Part shown: in pieces, positions 8,761 to 28,691 of the stretch
Numbering within the stretch: position 1 is the stretch's first letter
Layout: every line of letters starts with the position of its first letter
IMG/VR virus record: IMGVR_UViG_3300030450_000974
Span: 1 to 29,893 of that record
Length of the DNA: 29,893 nt
From: a virus
Direction: 5' to 3' (one strand)
The notes under the pieces: generated by a model
Seen by the model: the letters and a program-made list of their open reading frames with translations, nothing else
What the model was told of the DNA's origin: nothing
Database searches by the model: none
Position numbers and translations under genes: made by a program

Positions 8761-9144
8761 TTATTTTTTCTTAATTTTTTCGATGGAGCGTCCTGCAAAG
8801 TAGGCAGAATAGCAACAAAGTAGCAAAGTTTGATAAATTGGCAAATATGCTGATGATATTGAAAACCCACCCAAATTCCCATCAAATACTGATATTACTA
8901 CAAACACAAAGGTTAAAAATATCAAGGTTAATGGTCTTATATTTGCAGGTAGCCAACCTGCTTTAGCATCTGCTTCCCATCTTCTTGTAACTTGTTCTTG
9001 TGCTTGGCTTTCAGCTTTAGCTATTATTTCACGCAAGTTATTTTTTAATTGTTTACGCTCTGCATCCGTAGTTACAACATTATCCACAATTTTATTAACA
9101 CCATTTAAAAAATCACCGCCTAATAATTTGCCTATAAAGTTCAT
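8761..9144 (-). CDS. Holin of the 3TM/GTA type
   Basis: A 127-residue membrane protein. The amphipathic N-terminal half has a helix ending in the signature RRWEADAKAGWLPANIRPLT. Hydrophobic segments follow (LIFLTFVFVVISVF, then YQTLLLCCYSAYFAGRS) and a basic tail. This matches the phage holin family with the R-W-x-AD...GWL...NIRPLT pattern. It should form inner-membrane lesions that release the endolysin. It is read directly after the M15 endolysin with a 4-base overlap, a normal lysis-cassette layout. Confidence 0.85.
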   Translation of the reverse strand: MNFIGKLLGGDFLNGVNKIVDNVVTTDAERKQLKNNLREIIAKAESQAQEQVTRRWEADAKAGWLPANIRPLTLIFLTFVFVVISVFDGNLGGFSISSAYLPIYQTLLLCCYSAYFAGRSIEKIKKK

Positions 9145-9635
9145 ACCGAATGATAGTTTAGTTTATATCTATACTTGGTTTTATTGTTTTCATCTTTATA
9201 AGCCACAAGAATCTGTCTTCTATTGTCTGTCACCTTCCAGCTTATGTGAATCCAATCGGGTTTGCCGTCAATTGATTCTGTGCTTGTTCCAAATTCCAAA
9301 ATCATTTGGTCAAACTCTAATGCCGAATCTATAACAGCTTGAAATATCATTAGATTATCCATTTGCCCCCTTTTAAAATATTGTAGGTCAATGGCTTCTG
9401 CCTTTGCGTGTTGACTGCTTTTTTTACTGCCAATCGCTTCACATAATGCAGGAGACCGATAGCCACTCGTAACTCTTAATGGTCCTAAACGGTCACGCAG
9501 AACCTGTAAAAATTCGGTGGCTAATAGTCTTAATTTATATATATGTTCTTTAGAGGGGGTATTATCTATACCCATTCTAACTGCGGTATTGCTTCTTGTT
9601 AATTCCTCTAATGTAAAATTTTTAGAAAGTTTCAT
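9141..9635 (-). CDS. Endolysin, peptidase M15 family
   Basis: A zinc D-Ala-D-Ala or L-Ala-D-Glu type peptidase that cuts peptidoglycan cross-links. At 164 residues it has the standard single-domain length. Motifs in order: FTLEELTRS (7-15), VTSGYRSPAL (55-64), SSQHAKAEAIDL (73-84; zinc ligands H76 and D83) and WIHISW (129-134; H130). The usual SxHxxGxAxD has Ala in place of Gly. There is no signal peptide, so export depends on the adjacent holin. Confidence 0.92.
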   Translation of the reverse strand: MKLSKNFTLEELTRSNTAVRMGIDNTPSKEHIYKLRLLATEFLQVLRDRLGPLRVTSGYRSPALCEAIGSKKSSQHAKAEAIDLQYFKRGQMDNLMIFQAVIDSALEFDQMILEFGTSTESIDGKPDWIHISWKVTDNRRQILVAYKDENNKTKYRYKLNYHSV

Positions 9636-9958
9636 TCGAATTTAGCTAGATGAATTTTCTCGATTTCGTCTTGAATTTCTTCTTTTGTCGCTTCTAATTG
9701 CATCATTATATTTGCTTCAAATCTTGCAATTTCAATATCATTATCTAATATGATAACAGTAGGTACTGCAAATATATTATGCTTTTCCTGTAATTCAGGA
9801 CTATTGCAAATAACCACATCTGATTTTTCACAATCTTTTAGAATTGAAATATCATAATTATTATCTGCGTTCCATTCACTATTAAAATGAATTACAGATA
9901 CTTGCGAATAGCTTATAAAAAATAAACTACTTATTATTAATGTTATATAACCTTTCAT
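9632..9958 (-). CDS. Exported thioredoxin-fold protein without CxxC
   Basis: A 108-residue protein with a Sec signal peptide (LIISSLFFISYSQ, cleavage likely after residue 19). The mature part reads as a thioredoxin fold: strand VSVIHFNSEW, then a helical stretch, strand DVVICN, and the cis-proline loop AVPTVIIL (P66) with strand IARFEA. The CxxC that should follow W29 is replaced by NADN, so redox activity is unlikely; Cys43 and Cys51 remain. Similar inactive thioredoxin-like proteins are, to my memory, frequent in Bacteroidota phages near lysis genes. A periplasmic binding role is possible. Confidence 0.7.
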   Translation of the reverse strand: MKGYITLIISSLFFISYSQVSVIHFNSEWNADNNYDISILKDCEKSDVVICNSPELQEKHNIFAVPTVIILDNDIEIARFEANIMMQLEATKEEIQDEIEKIHLAKFE

Positions 9959-10223
9959 CTATTTTGTCAATTTTGGTCTCAATTTTATTTAAATGTTCTT
10001 GCTGTGTTTTTAATTGAGTTCCGTTATTAAGGATGGTCTGCCGAATTAATTTATCCTTTAATTCAAACTCTTTCTCACTAATAGGCATTTCAGGTAATGT
10101 TTTAGCCACTTCTATTTCCGCCTGTAATGTGAAATAAGTAGCGGATAATGATACTATACCACCGAGCAATAAAACGATAGTTTTAATATCTAAAGTTAGA
10201 TTTGTTGATTCTGATACTTTCAT
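9927..10223 (-). CDS. Membrane-anchored coiled-coil protein, spanin-like candidate
   Basis: A 98-residue protein. A short polar N-terminus is followed by one membrane segment (IVLLLGGIVSLSATYFTL, about 16-33), then a long charged helical domain with heptads (LNKIETKIDKIDERLYNI). That is the topology of an inner-membrane spanin or an accessory holin-type anchor. It overlaps its neighbours by 4 and 32 bases inside the lysis cluster. No lipoprotein partner (o-spanin) is evident, so the spanin assignment is a suggestion from topology and location. Confidence 0.65.
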   Translation of the reverse strand: MKVSESTNLTLDIKTIVLLLGGIVSLSATYFTLQAEIEVAKTLPEMPISEKEFELKDKLIRQTILNNGTQLKTQQEHLNKIETKIDKIDERLYNINNK

Positions 10224-10456
10224 TTTTTATTACAATTAGAACATTTATTACTAGATACTTTTTCTATTCCACTAATGCCAAAACACCCTAAAACAACCCA
10301 AACAAAAGAATCGTAAATAAATTCATTTACTATAAGTTCTTTTCCTACCCATCCTGTAAGTAAATCAGCTATCATTATTAAACACATTATTAAGAAAGCA
10401 ACAAATCCAATTATGGCTTTTTCATTCCAATCGTTATTATCTTTAAATATATCCAT
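10220..10456 (-). CDS. Small two-TM membrane protein, holin-like, with a CxxC tail
   Basis: A 78-residue protein with two hydrophobic segments (AIIGFVAFLIMCLIMIADLL and FVWVVLGCFGISGI) and a C-terminal knuckle KCSNCNKK. The turn LLTGWVGKELIVNEFIYDS between the membrane segments resembles class II-type phage holin or holin-like proteins of this phylum. With the 3TM holin nearby it could be an antiholin or second holin. The short CxxC tail may bind metal. Its start follows the CDGSH gene by 4 bases. Confidence 0.65.
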   Translation of the reverse strand: MDIFKDNNDWNEKAIIGFVAFLIMCLIMIADLLTGWVGKELIVNEFIYDSFVWVVLGCFGISGIEKVSSNKCSNCNKK

Positions 10457-10460
10457 ATTG

Positions 10461-10598
10461 TTATTGTTTTATTTCATCAGCAAAAGGAACATCTTCGTTT
10501 TGGTCTAAATCATCTTCACAAACATTACTGTGTGAACCATCACAATATCCATCAGAATTGTTTGTTTGTCCGCATATACATTTTTTCCTTGTTGCCAT
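10461..10598 (-). CDS. Miniature CDGSH iron-sulfur protein (45 aa)
   Basis: ATG at 10598-10596 shares one base with the upstream stop (TAATG); TAA is at 10463-10461. Residues 7-23 read CICGQTNNSDGYCDGSH, the CDGSH signature (CxC ... CDGxH) whose three Cys and one His hold a [2Fe-2S] cluster in the mitoNEET family. Between the second and third Cys there are 9 residues instead of the usual 8, and the usual Pro is absent. The remaining half is acidic. Family members are normally longer than 45 residues. Redox or cluster-transfer function is known for the family; its role in a phage is unknown. Confidence 0.75.
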   Translation of the reverse strand: MATRKKCICGQTNNSDGYCDGSHSNVCEDDLDQNEDVPFADEIKQ

Positions 10599-11044
10599 TA
10601 TTTTATATTATATTTTATTTGACCATTTTCTATATATACTCCTTGTGGTTTTGCAATAACATCACCATTAAGATTATATAAAAAACCCGTATTTTCTGAC
10701 TCTTTAATTAACTGTGGTAACCCAACATAACAAGGTAATCCTGTTTCACAATCAAGGTATTCCACTATGTAGATGGTGTCACAGATTGGTGGTGGTGGAG
10801 TACATTCTTCTATTAGTGTTGGAACCGCACCATTTTCATCTGTTGCATCTACACAATCTATCCACCCATCATTTATCCAAGAGTTTTGAACACAACCCTC
10901 TGGCGAATACTGTGTCCAATTAGCAGGGTCATCTCCACAATAAAAACCTTGAGACTCAGCACAAGCAATACACAATTCTTGAAAATCATAATCTTGTGAA
11001 AATGAAATTGAAAATATAAAGAATAAAAACATTAATTTTTTCAT
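10598..11044 (-). CDS. Secreted Cys-rich protein with LDLa-like motif and possible T9SS tail
   Basis: A 148-residue protein with a clear Sec signal peptide (KKLMFLFFIFSISFSQ, residues 2-17). The mature part has nine cysteines (25, 28, 36, 51, 64, 81, 88, 99, 105). Residues 51-70 (CVQNSWINDGWIDCVDATDE) resemble the calcium-binding end of an LDL-receptor class A repeat, with one Cys replaced by Asn. The last 30 residues (GFLYNLNGDVIAKP, then QGVYIENGQIKYNIK) resemble the type A sorting domain of the Bacteroidota type IX secretion system. If correct, it is sent to the host surface. Both similarities are by eye. Confidence 0.65.
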   Translation of the reverse strand: MKKLMFLFFIFSISFSQDYDFQELCIACAESQGFYCGDDPANWTQYSPEGCVQNSWINDGWIDCVDATDENGAVPTLIEECTPPPPICDTIYIVEYLDCETGLPCYVGLPQLIKESENTGFLYNLNGDVIAKPQGVYIENGQIKYNIK

Positions 11045-11045
11045 A

Positions 11046-12062
11046 TTAATATATTAAATAGTTAAACCCAAATTTACACTCGTATATATGTTTTCCCCAA
11101 TACTTCAAATGCACACCCTCAACGAACAATCCTAAATGTTTGTTAATCCTAACACCTAATATAGCCCCTGAGTCCCATTCTAAGCGTTCTAAGACACTTT
11201 CTCCATACTCATAAGAGAAACTATCTAAACCATAGTGTAAAGGCATTAGATTAGCCCAAATGTGAATCCAAAAATTAGGATTATATTTATAGTATTCTAA
11301 ACCCATCACTAAACTAAGTTCTTTTTGCATACCCAACGCCTCTAATTCTTGAGCATTAAAATCAGCTATTGCTTGTCCAAAATAGTGTTTGTAAAATTCA
11401 TCATTTGAGGTAGCTAATAATTCGCCATCTTTAAACCAATGCCACGAACCATTTACGAACTCACTAGAATAACCAAAATCTTCTGCTAATTGTGGAAACG
11501 ATTGTTCGCCAGGAATCCAAAAATCACGAATAGGAACTATACCATAAGGATTGTGTATGCGAAAAACACCACCAAGACTAAAATCAAAATCACCTTTAGT
11601 TATTCTTAATCGGGTATCAAATGAATTATATTTTAAATCAACTCTCTGATTATCGGTGTATTGTATTTTGGTAACACATTTATTTCCTAAATATCTTAAC
11701 CAAAAATTTTGTTCTGTAAATTTATCACCCCTAGTTCTTATAAAAGAATAGTTAAAAAGATATTCCCAACCTAAAGCATTGCCTATTGTAGATTTATCAG
11801 AAAATGCTTTCTCATTTCCATAATACCAAGTTTTAACTTTATACTCATAATCAAATCGTGCAATTTTTCTAATTCCGATAGTTAAATTATAATCATAAGG
11901 ATTAATTTGAGTTACATTTTCATAACCTTTAGAAATAGAAATATAATCTTCATCTTCAACCATACTTGTGTTTATACTCATTGAGGTATATATAGTGGAA
12001 TATTTGAAAAAATCTATTTGACTAAATGATAATAGCGGTAATAATAATAGTAAATACTTCAT
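11046..12062 (-). CDS. Predicted outer-membrane beta-barrel protein
   Basis: A 338-residue protein from the ATG at 12062, which shares one base with the preceding stop (TAATG). A Sec signal peptide (MKYLLLLLPLLSFSQ) is followed by alternating aromatic/polar strands throughout (WEYLFNYSFIRTRG, FWLRYLG, FDFSLGGVFRIHN, FWIHIWANLMPLHYG, HLGLFVEGVHLKYWG) ending in an aromatic-rich strand, as outer-membrane barrels do. A longer reading (354 residues) would hide the signal peptide and is rejected. I recall close relatives as hypothetical proteins in flavobacterial phages. Possible roles: receptor masking or envelope modification. Confidence 0.75.
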   Translation of the reverse strand: MKYLLLLLPLLSFSQIDFFKYSTIYTSMSINTSMVEDEDYISISKGYENVTQINPYDYNLTIGIRKIARFDYEYKVKTWYYGNEKAFSDKSTIGNALGWEYLFNYSFIRTRGDKFTEQNFWLRYLGNKCVTKIQYTDNQRVDLKYNSFDTRLRITKGDFDFSLGGVFRIHNPYGIVPIRDFWIPGEQSFPQLAEDFGYSSEFVNGSWHWFKDGELLATSNDEFYKHYFGQAIADFNAQELEALGMQKELSLVMGLEYYKYNPNFWIHIWANLMPLHYGLDSFSYEYGESVLERLEWDSGAILGVRINKHLGLFVEGVHLKYWGKHIYECKFGFNYLIY

Positions 12063-27202: not shown

Positions 27203-27934
27203 AATTATTGTTTTGTTTTGCGTTATAATCTTGAGTATATGCTAAATAAGTTAATACTTCAAGTATTTTCAATTTTGTTATTTTATTTATGTCTAATATA
27301 CTATTAGATAAACTATAGAGAATGTTATACCATCCCCATTTGCTCTGCATTGTTACACCTTTTGTGGTTTCGTTTCCTGTGCTTTCAAATAATTGAGCGA
27401 AGTCCTCGCTAATTTGCTTCCTAAAGTCAAAAAAAAACCTAGCGAATTTAATGCTATATCCATTGGACAATCTTTAAATAACTCTTCTTTAAATTGGTCA
27501 GGGTTATAACTTTCTATTGCATACCTTTCACCTCTTTTAAATGAAATCCGTCTATATAAAATACTCATTATAATATGTAAATTTTCAACAGGTTCTTTAC
27601 AATATGTTTCTAAATCTATGTACTCACCTGTAGTAATTTGAGATAAATTAGGACAAAAACCATAATCTTCATTTTTAAATTTAAATATCTTTTTAAATTC
27701 TTCTTTATGAGGTTCTGTATCAATTAGCTTTTTAATTATACCCATTATCTCTAATAAGTCCTTGTAAGCCATTTTCTTTATTACCACAAGCTGAGTGCCA
27801 CATAACAAGGCTAAACTCTTTAAAACCTTTGTTTTCTCACTTCCTTTACCCTCTTGAATCTTTACATACTTTTGATAGGTTTCTATTGTTATGTCAGACC
27901 ACCTATCGGGTATTGTTAATTTAACTTCCTTCAT
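27189..27934 (-). CDS. Tail assembly chaperone, predicted -1 frameshift fusion
   Basis: Predicted 248-residue product joining the first part of the chaperone to an 80-residue extension. The zero frame reads GGT TTT TTT TTG at the slippery site; a slip of -1 continues as GAC TTT AGG (...FFDFRKQISEDFAQLFEST), stopping at 27189. A separate gene starting at the ATG at 27470 would begin inside the chaperone and lack a domain of its own, so the fusion is preferred. In siphoviruses the two forms are made in a fixed ratio for tail assembly. The extension ends with YDKF. Confidence 0.75.
27353..27934 (-). CDS. Tail assembly chaperone, zero-frame product
   Basis: A 193-residue protein beginning MKEVKLTIPDRWSDITIETY. 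The N-terminal pattern (strand, then a DITIETYQKYVKIQ helix) and the helical body (VENLHIIMSILYRRISF) suit the tail assembly chaperones that bind the tape measure and tail tube. The gene ends shortly after a T9 slippery run at 27429-27437, and a second, longer reading continues in the -1 frame to 27189, as in lambda gpG/gpGT. The TTTATATTTATTA leader precedes the ATG. In the right-hand strain the methyltransferase stop lies 20 bases upstream of this ATG. Confidence 0.8.
   Translation of the reverse strand: MKEVKLTIPDRWSDITIETYQKYVKIQEGKGSEKTKVLKSLALLCGTQLVVIKKMAYKDLLEIMGIIKKLIDTEPHKEEFKKIFKFKNEDYGFCPNLSQITTGEYIDLETYCKEPVENLHIIMSILYRRISFKRGERYAIESYNPDQFKEELFKDCPMDIALNSLGFFLTLGSKLARTSLNYLKAQETKPQKV
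27429..27437 (-). promoter_or_regulatory. Slippery T9 run for -1 frameshifting
   Basis: Nine consecutive Ts on the minus strand (GG-T9-GAC) contain the T_TTT_TTT form of a -1 slippery heptamer in the zero frame. Downstream the zero frame stays open for about 25 codons, while the -1 frame is open for 80. No strong pseudoknot was evident by eye. Confidence 0.75.
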
Positions 27935-27937
27935 TAC

Positions 27938-27950
27938 TAATAAATATAAA
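27938..27950 (-). promoter_or_regulatory. Repeated leader TTTATATTTATTA before the chaperone gene
   Basis: Same 13-base sequence as before the protease and scaffold genes, here 3 bases from the chaperone ATG (followed by GTA). It is conserved in both terminal copies although flanking bases differ, which argues for function. Confidence 0.5.
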
Positions 27951-27953
27951 ATG

Positions 27954-28691
27954 TTATAATTCGTTTTTTATTCTTTGTTCTGCTATTTTAAAATAGTCTT
28001 TGTCTAATTCAATTCCTATAAAATCTCTGTTAGTATTGCAACAAGCAACGCCTGTTGATCCACTTCCCATTGTAAAATCTAATACTGTTTCCTGTTCTTT
28101 TGTATAAGTTTTAATAAGATATTCCATTAATGCAACAGGTTTTTGTGTAGGGTGTACTCTATTTTGTCCGTTACATTCTTTTTTATCTTTATTGTAACTT
28201 AATATTGAAGTGGGAAATCTATCTTTGTACACTCTCCCTGGTTTTTTTTTACTATCAAAATTACCATTTTCACTATGAATATTTTTAAATTTCCATTTAC
28301 TACTGTCTAAAATTTTTTTTCTTGGTGTTTTTATTGGATAGTAATTATGTCTTTCATTAGCAAAAACAGAAATAATTTCGTGTTGCTTCATTGGTCTATA
28401 CCTTACTGTACTTGCACCAACCCCTCTTTCTTTGTCCCAAATCCAATCATATTTATAATTTTTTAAATTACTCATTCTTAAAGCACTGCTAAACGGCTCT
28501 GATCCAAACAAAACAATTGCACCATTTTTTTTAATAATTCTGTTTAACTGTTCCCACATTAAATCAAATGGAATAACATTATCCCATTTACAAGCAGTAG
28601 TTCCATAAGGTATATCAGTTATAATAGCATCAATACTTTTGTCAGGTATTGACTTCATTACTTCTAAACAATCTCCGTTATATAGTTTCAT
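27954..28691 (-). CDS. DNA N6-adenine/N4-cytosine methyltransferase, beta class, strain-specific
   Basis: A 245-residue methyltransferase with catalytic motif IV as DIPY (26-29; DPPY-type with Ile). The target-recognition part is in the middle (about 90-170), HPTQKP is at 180-185, and the AdoMet-binding motif I DFTMGSGSTG (205-214) is near the C-terminus. The order IV to I defines the beta class. The ATG overlaps the terminase stop (ATGA). It is absent between the same genes in the left copy, so it is an accessory cassette. It may protect against host restriction; target sequence unknown. Confidence 0.9.
   Translation of the reverse strand: MKLYNGDCLEVMKSIPDKSIDAIITDIPYGTTACKWDNVIPFDLMWEQLNRIIKKNGAIVLFGSEPFSSALRMSNLKNYKYDWIWDKERGVGASTVRYRPMKQHEIISVFANERHNYYPIKTPRKKILDSSKWKFKNIHSENGNFDSKKKPGRVYKDRFPTSILSYNKDKKECNGQNRVHPTQKPVALMEYLIKTYTKEQETVLDFTMGSGSTGVACCNTNRDFIGIELDKDYFKIAEQRIKNEL

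Follow-up and report, generated by a model that had tools for sequence, protein, structure and literature searches.

In F. johnsoniae, the cargo/shuttle pairs SprB-SprF and Fjoh_3952-Fjoh_3951 of the type IX secretion system (T9SS) each combine a type B C-terminal sorting domain (CTD) with a PorP/SprF-like barrel, which is needed for secretion of the cargo and is thought to anchor it (PMC12618676, PMC9143113). For type A CTDs, the known shuttle is the general one, PorV, rather than a barrel dedicated to the cargo (PMC12618676). Short CTDs have been described in P. intermedia; they measure 40-51 aa between cleavage site and C-terminus, contain motifs B, D and E, and are still cleaved and anchored (PMC11969387). 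In these, motif B consists of a Tyr, an invariant Gly and a basic residue, motif D is GxY followed by Ile, motif E is basic, motifs B and D are 1-6 aa apart, and three strands are predicted (PMC11969387). For HBP35, the targeting signal was located within the last 22 residues (PMC11285876). T9SS cargo encoded by a phage is already known from one report in the literature searched: Cryophage, a cryoconite phage, carries an endoglucanase, a GH39 and a PA14 protein with T9SS type A sorting domains, which that report terms a unique occurrence (Bellas 2020, PMC7468147).

The locus described here resembles SprB-SprF in that a secreted protein with a C-terminal sorting domain, here a candidate one, is encoded directly beside a predicted outer-membrane barrel. 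Unlike that pair, it is phage-encoded, the cargo ends in a type A CTD (large phages) or a short type A-like tail (small phages) and not in a type B CTD, and the barrel has 12 predicted strands against 14, with no detectable sequence relation to PorP/SprF or PorV. Cryophage likewise has genes ending in T9SS type A sorting domains; however, the available part of the Cryophage report mentions no paired barrel, short tail or LDLa head. The window, i.e. the whole stretch of DNA that was analysed, is a 29.9-kb IMG/VR viral contig with its main genes on the minus strand, in the order terminase and head/tail genes, a small cluster, endolysin/holin, and replication genes. Flavobacteriia are the most likely hosts; annotated capsid relatives were found only in the Nonlabens phages P12024L and P12024S (24% identity), and the best annotated terminase matches, among the matches listed, are mostly from Parabacteroides phages. 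Two large-terminase genes lie at opposite contig ends (98-1255 and 28688-29845; 85% identical in protein, about 80% in DNA), and bases 1-97 match 27873-27969 (93%), so that the methyltransferase next to the right copy has no counterpart after the left one. This looks like either a circular or redundant genome assembled over two strain variants or a tandem terminase duplication.

The gene under study (10598..11044, minus strand; ATG start, TAA stop) encodes a 148-aa secreted protein with an LDLa-like head and a short, T9SS CTD-like tail. One scan of IMG/VR returned 27 relatives and a profile scan found at least 221 stretches; since the gene is conserved and co-oriented in all of these, the reading frame is more than a chance one. 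Full-length members share a common plan, consisting of a signal peptide, a head with conserved cysteines, a stalk, a YxDCxTGxPC signature and a 42-aa tail. Directly upstream lies the gene of the barrel ('bbar'; 11046..12062, minus strand), whose stop codon precedes the LDLa start by 1 nt. The reading that we favour, with moderate confidence, is that the LDLa protein is displayed via the host T9SS with the barrel as its partner.

A Sec signal peptide was recognised at the hydrophobic N-terminus (residues 1-16, 10997..11044, minus strand; MKKLMFLFFIFSISFS, followed by Q). Cleavage is expected before Gln17, which is invariant in 56 aligned relatives, and a Gln right after the cleavage site is the Bacteroidetes Q-rule (PMC5837995). 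The mature protein contains nine cysteines (25, 28, 36, 51, 64, 81, 88, 99 and 105), all of them invariant save C88, which is kept in >90% of the members. The first-pass annotation had proposed a signal peptide, nine cysteines and a segment resembling the calcium-binding end of LDLa repeats from the window alone, and all three were borne out by the family. These features bear on the idea that the product is a virion component, namely a minor tail or capsid decoration protein in which the LDLa likeness is a coincidence of fold. Such a role would suit a gene at the end of the structural block, but signal peptides are found in both the cargo and the barrel families, the cleavage-site Gln of the cargo is invariant, and the cytoplasm is not a compartment in which a disulfide-rich head would be expected to fold. 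We regard this idea as highly improbable and the protein as a candidate for display at the cell surface.

The cysteine-rich head (residues 25-81, 10802..10972, minus strand) contains the LDLa-like segment NDGWIDCVDATDE; D59, D63, D69 and E70, the predicted Ca2+ ligands, which lie around the fifth LDLa cysteine, are invariant over 56 sequences. PF00057 matched 23 of 26 members (best E 0.0014), and the family profile retrieved from the PDB almost exclusively LDLa-type chains (LDLR, LRP1/2, VLDLR, CD320 and glucosidase II beta; best E 0.007). AlphaFold2 (AF2) modelled the head with a pLDDT of about 85-91, and the Foldseek hits of the LDLa model, weak as they were (all E>0.8), were mostly LDLa domains. 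The window copy itself scored below the 24.1-bit curated cut-off of PF00057 (11 bits, E 0.51), and NCBIfam, Pfam and PHROGs gave nothing significant for the window protein; a GST_N_3 match (E 0.17) was weak and attributed to chance. Like LDLa (PF00057), the viral module has the spacing of the last cysteines and the acidic D-x3-D-C...D-E calcium motif. It differs in its additional surrounding cysteine pairs and in the canonical fourth cysteine, located before DG, which is an Asn in nearly all viral members (NDG, not CDG); therefore, the canonical set of six cysteines (1-3, 2-5 and 4-6 disulfides) is incomplete in nearly all of them.

Two bacterial proteins carry related modules. In a Neomarinimicrobiota MAG (L030), a GFYCGDDxSNW module keeps the fourth cysteine and is followed by ordinary LDLa-like repeats, which links the viral module to true LDLa. 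This surface-like protein, with its several LDLa-like repeats, is also a possible bacterial source of the module. In a Flavobacteriales MAG (L029), the LDLa-like module of the viral family occurs in an 802-aa frame that ends in a T9SS type A-like tail. Behind the head of the viral protein, comparison of the family members delimits a stalk (residues 88-105, C88-DTIYIVEYLDCETGLPC; 10730..10783, minus strand), the length of which varies from about 10 to >150 aa across relatives, with units of the DTV/VIEYV/ETEY type.

The C-terminal tail (residues 107-148, 10601..10726, minus strand) has the family consensus SGIxEILxKSKxxxLxYNLxGQxIxxPEGxYIENGKIKYKL (42 aa), with G127, Y137, I138 and G141 invariant. 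Its end had been likened to T9SS sorting domains in the first-pass annotation, which had chosen a search with Por_Secre_tail and TIGR04183 as the refuting test beforehand. That search went against it, in that TIGR04183 and PF18962 matched 0 of 26 members, and the curated T9SS profiles were thus silent. The segment that had been singled out, LYNLNGDVIAKPQGVYIENGQIKYNIK, is present. By the definitions of PMC11969387, the window tail contains motif B (YNLNGDVIAK), motif D (GVYI) and motif E (NGQIKYNIK). Among 44 phage tails, motif B has its Tyr in 42 and its Gly in 44, motif D has Tyr in 43 and Ile in 44, and motif E is mostly Lys. AF2 predicted a helix and three strands (122-124, 135-139 and 142-146; mean pLDDT 81-89 in the last blocks). 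The phage tails are comparable to the P. intermedia short CTDs in length, in the layout of motifs B, D and E, in the short B-D spacing and in the predicted three-stranded fold (PMC11969387), though not in every motif residue: the latter, which are from Bacteroidales, have an absolute Gly in motif D, which is present in 34/44 phage tails.

Profile comparisons of the tail gave signals of graded strength. Against the PDB, the best hit fell on the C-terminal residues 654-679 of 692 in the arabinanase 4kca (E 0.018), and a further one on residues 814-840 of 847, likewise C-terminal, in the beta-helix protein 7jvi (E 0.22); those ranked between them were to yeast HSH49, and the best bacterial matches were thus C-termini of secreted proteins. 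An HMM of cellular CTDs, built solely from one Flavobacteriales MAG, was run on 8,584 ORFs of viral loci. At E<=0.001 it detected 71 big cargos; the next hits, up to E 1, were 30 LDLa proteins and 5 others, although LDLa proteins make up 158 of the 8,584 ORFs; these scores are borderline and come from related, not independent, sequences, and the window protein had E 5.8. When the short tail was compared with long CTDs by hhalign, motif B alone was aligned (13-27% probability), because the B-D spacing differs between the two. When 99 genomes of the phylum were searched with the tail profile, all hits were weak, though 9 of the top 30 lay in motif B of a CTD-like tail, at 30-50 aa from the C-terminal end. 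Querying for Bacteroidales short CTDs with the 4kca and 7jvi tails returned mainly long CTDs.

The same tail also occurs on secreted proteins that have no LDLa head (L195, L198, L206, L216 and L220), and on sequence grounds it behaves as a transferable C-terminal module. One of these proteins (L216:10835-11437) has, besides the short tail, a signal of the lipoprotein type (LLAGCG); it is unusual for lipidation and a T9SS-like tail to be combined. In addition, two secreted proteins near barrels without a long CTD (L231:19-465 and L246:10721-13414) end in short-CTD-like tails (YIDMFGIQYTIPPKGLSIMNKEKYYRL and IGVTDLLGRSVNKIDNQLLFFIYDDGTVDKKIMKK, respectively), which are possible further variants.

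The upstream protein (338 aa) has a signal peptide and is predicted to be a phage-specific outer-membrane barrel. Its AF2 model (pTM 0.72) shows 12 long strands, and the best Foldseek hits were outer-membrane barrels such as NanC (E 6e-5), FapF and porins; a viral homologue was also found by Foldseek (A0A516LKJ4, TM 0.75). A search of the PDB with the barrel profile gave no convincing hit. Assignment of the barrel to known shuttle families was rejected: PF11751 (PorP/SprF) matched 0/53 members, with an hhalign probability of 12% covering the N-terminal part only, and PF19572 (PorV) matched 0/53 members, with 2.8%, while the PorP versus PorV control reached 97%. For this reason, we propose that the barrel works like SprF in the SprB-SprF pair and not that it is a member of that family. 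The first-pass annotation was supported in part, and it had missed this invariant upstream partner.

The distribution of the barrel bears on its origin. Of 296 genomes of the host order, a single one was found to have it, on a contig (L168) that is also in IMG/VR as a virus, which argues that the pair is viral. When both proteins were searched by tblastn at a permissive E against 50,697 phage records, neither the LDLa protein nor the barrel found a match. A different origin would be that of a host-derived moron, i.e. a captured flavobacterial surface protein serving adhesion or nutrient use of the host or virocell, with no role in superinfection or lysis. The combination of an LDLa-like module and a T9SS tail in the Flavobacteriales MAG protein speaks for such an origin, as does the published phage T9SS cargo with enzymatic domains (PMC7468147). 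However, the near absence of the barrel from host-order genomes, and the viral nature of the one contig that has it, are at odds with capture, and its fixed place over very different phages points to a function for the phage more than to cargo gained now and then. We consider this explanation quite unlikely and that of a phage display cassette the better one.

We next asked how consistently the two genes occur together. Of 100 loci recruited with the LDLa protein, 98 have a barrel homologue, about 1 kb upstream. The loci recruited with the barrel fall into the A4 type, paired with a short-tailed ORF, and the L168 type of large phages. In every A4-type locus with complete context, a short-tailed ORF is adjacent to the barrel; 147 loci were classed as adjacent, and the remainder are truncated contigs or, in one case, have a broken barrel frame. 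Because recruitment by the LDLa protein and by the barrel agree, recruitment bias is not the explanation of the pairing. The pair also persists in phage contigs of 40-70 kb in which the capsid genes are not matched. Barrel type and tail type segregate, in that none of the A4-type loci has a separate long-CTD cargo adjoining its barrel.

The L168 type provides the closest comparison. In L168 (43 kb), the barrel is 33% identical to the window barrel and its neighbours are as in the window, with homologues of the genes at 10220 and 9927 and of the thioredoxin-like gene, followed by a different lysin. Next to this barrel is the gene of a secreted protein of 994 aa, which contains GCTDP.NYDPNANxDDGSC repeats and ends in a full type A CTD (TIGR04183 E 1.7e-14). 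In 80 loci recruited with the L168 barrel (1.03 Mb), 71 T9SS-CTD ORFs were counted at E<=0.001; all 71 share the strand of the barrel, with 49 lying no more than 30 nt and 70 no more than 1.5 kb away from it. Several of the loci without a CTD ORF are cut by the contig end, and at least one (L228) has a truncated cargo. PF18962 scored above its cut-off in 8/8 large-phage cargos tested, and hhalign of large-phage against cellular CTDs gave 98.9%. In a jumbo phage contig (L245/L247, IMGVR_UViG_3300030098_004828, 245.6 kb), there are two barrels, and each is paired with a type A CTD cargo of its own. The neighbour of the barrel thus scores as T9SS cargo in all cases where its tail has the length that the profiles require, and the short-tailed protein of the window occupies the equivalent position.

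These comparisons also bear on the possibility that the phage barrel is the only target of the tail, which would serve it as a plug, docking peptide or similar ligand; the tail would then be unrelated to the T9SS, and the protein would be periplasmic or otherwise routed, for example through the barrel. The missing hits to curated T9SS profiles, the weak hhalign scores and the co-segregation of barrel type with tail type would all fit. Nevertheless, the equivalent large-phage gene, by a homologous barrel, has an unmistakable type A CTD, and the short tail fits the CTD motifs B, D and E as well as the C-termini of Bacteroidota secreted proteins, which makes the possibility an improbable one in our estimate. 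A T9SS tail is still favoured because of the short-CTD pattern, the AF2 strands, the borderline HMM hits and the unrelated heads that carry it, and above all because the homologous large-phage cassette has a full canonical CTD beside the barrel.

The genes that follow the cassette are all on the minus strand. A 45-aa mini-protein (10461..10598), the ATG of which overlaps the LDLa stop by 1 nt, has a CDGSH-type iron-sulfur motif (CICGQTNNSDGYCDGSH) and is near the cassette in a minority of loci; among the large-phage loci, 15 of 80 have a related CDGSH tail close to the barrel, as do 4 of the small-phage set. It is followed by a small membrane protein with, by eye, two hydrophobic segments (10220..10456; 55/100 loci, homologue in L168), for which a TssN match (E 0.0028) was far under the cut-off and put down to chance. 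Next come a protein of i-spanin-like topology, with an N-terminal hydrophobic segment and a predicted coiled coil by eye (9927..10223; 86/100 loci, also in L168), and an exported thioredoxin-fold-like protein (9632..9958; 93/100 loci). The latter is probably not a redox thioredoxin, since a CxxC active site was found in 0 of 207 homologues. The lysis genes adjoining the cassette encode an M15 peptidase endolysin (9141..9635) and a holin (8761..9144).

This neighbourhood, in which the cassette stands between late structural genes and holin/endolysin and the exported thioredoxin-like and i-spanin-like genes are conserved alongside, could be taken to mean that barrel and cargo are lysis accessories. 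They would then weaken or open the outer membrane and replace or assist spanins, with the LDLa head being structural or regulatory. Yet many unrelated genes part barrel and cargo from the holin in L195, L206 and L216, big repetitive cargos with sorting-type CTDs are unlike membrane disruptors, and the position may reflect just a shared late timing. A lysis function thus appears improbable as well, and surface display via the T9SS remains our preferred reading.

Under this reading, the LDLa gene would be the cargo half of a phage two-gene surface-display cassette. Cargo and barrel would both reach the periplasm via Sec, where the barrel would insert into the outer membrane. The host T9SS would export the LDLa-headed protein across the outer membrane, recognising the 42-aa tail as a short type A CTD, and the phage barrel would bind the tail and retain the cargo at the surface, as SprF does SprB. 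The calcium-dependent head would accordingly be displayed on the infected cell late in infection, a timing suggested by gene position only. More specifically, the dedicated 12-strand barrel, unrelated in sequence to PorV and PorP, may be a cognate shuttle and anchor for phage T9SS cargo that exists in two matched versions, one clade with the short tail and the other with a full type A CTD. We put this forward tentatively, at somewhat less than even chance; because type A CTDs use PorV, a dedicated barrel partner would be new.

As for the head, its likeliest use would be to mask or occupy surface receptors, thereby reducing superinfection and the loss of progeny to envelope debris; taken on its own, this role is possible though rather unlikely. 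Llp, an envelope lipoprotein made by phage T5, is among the proteins for which receptor masking that spares progeny has been proposed. Llp differs from the present protein in being a small lipoprotein with no known relation in sequence or fold, and for the present protein such a role is putative. In phage-exposed F. columnare, most isolates had mutations in gld/spr genes (gliding, T9SS) and were resistant to the ancestral phage (PMC9233685). We prefer masking as the role because these mutations tie the machinery to phage entry.

Neither a barrel partner nor phage cargo with a short CTD was found in the open-access literature searched. Hundreds of uncultured viral contigs carry the pair; a search of the annotated phage collection yielded no record with it. 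Because the barrel lies outside the known shuttle families and comes already paired with its cargo, recognition between CTD type and shuttle becomes directly testable. Overall, these results indicate that many uncultured viruses of marine flavobacteria probably decorate the infected cell with a calcium-binding protein of their own. If this is true, phages of these abundant bacteria would routinely use the T9SS, the main adhesin route of their hosts, to repaint the infected cell, which would have a bearing on superinfection exclusion and phage competition.
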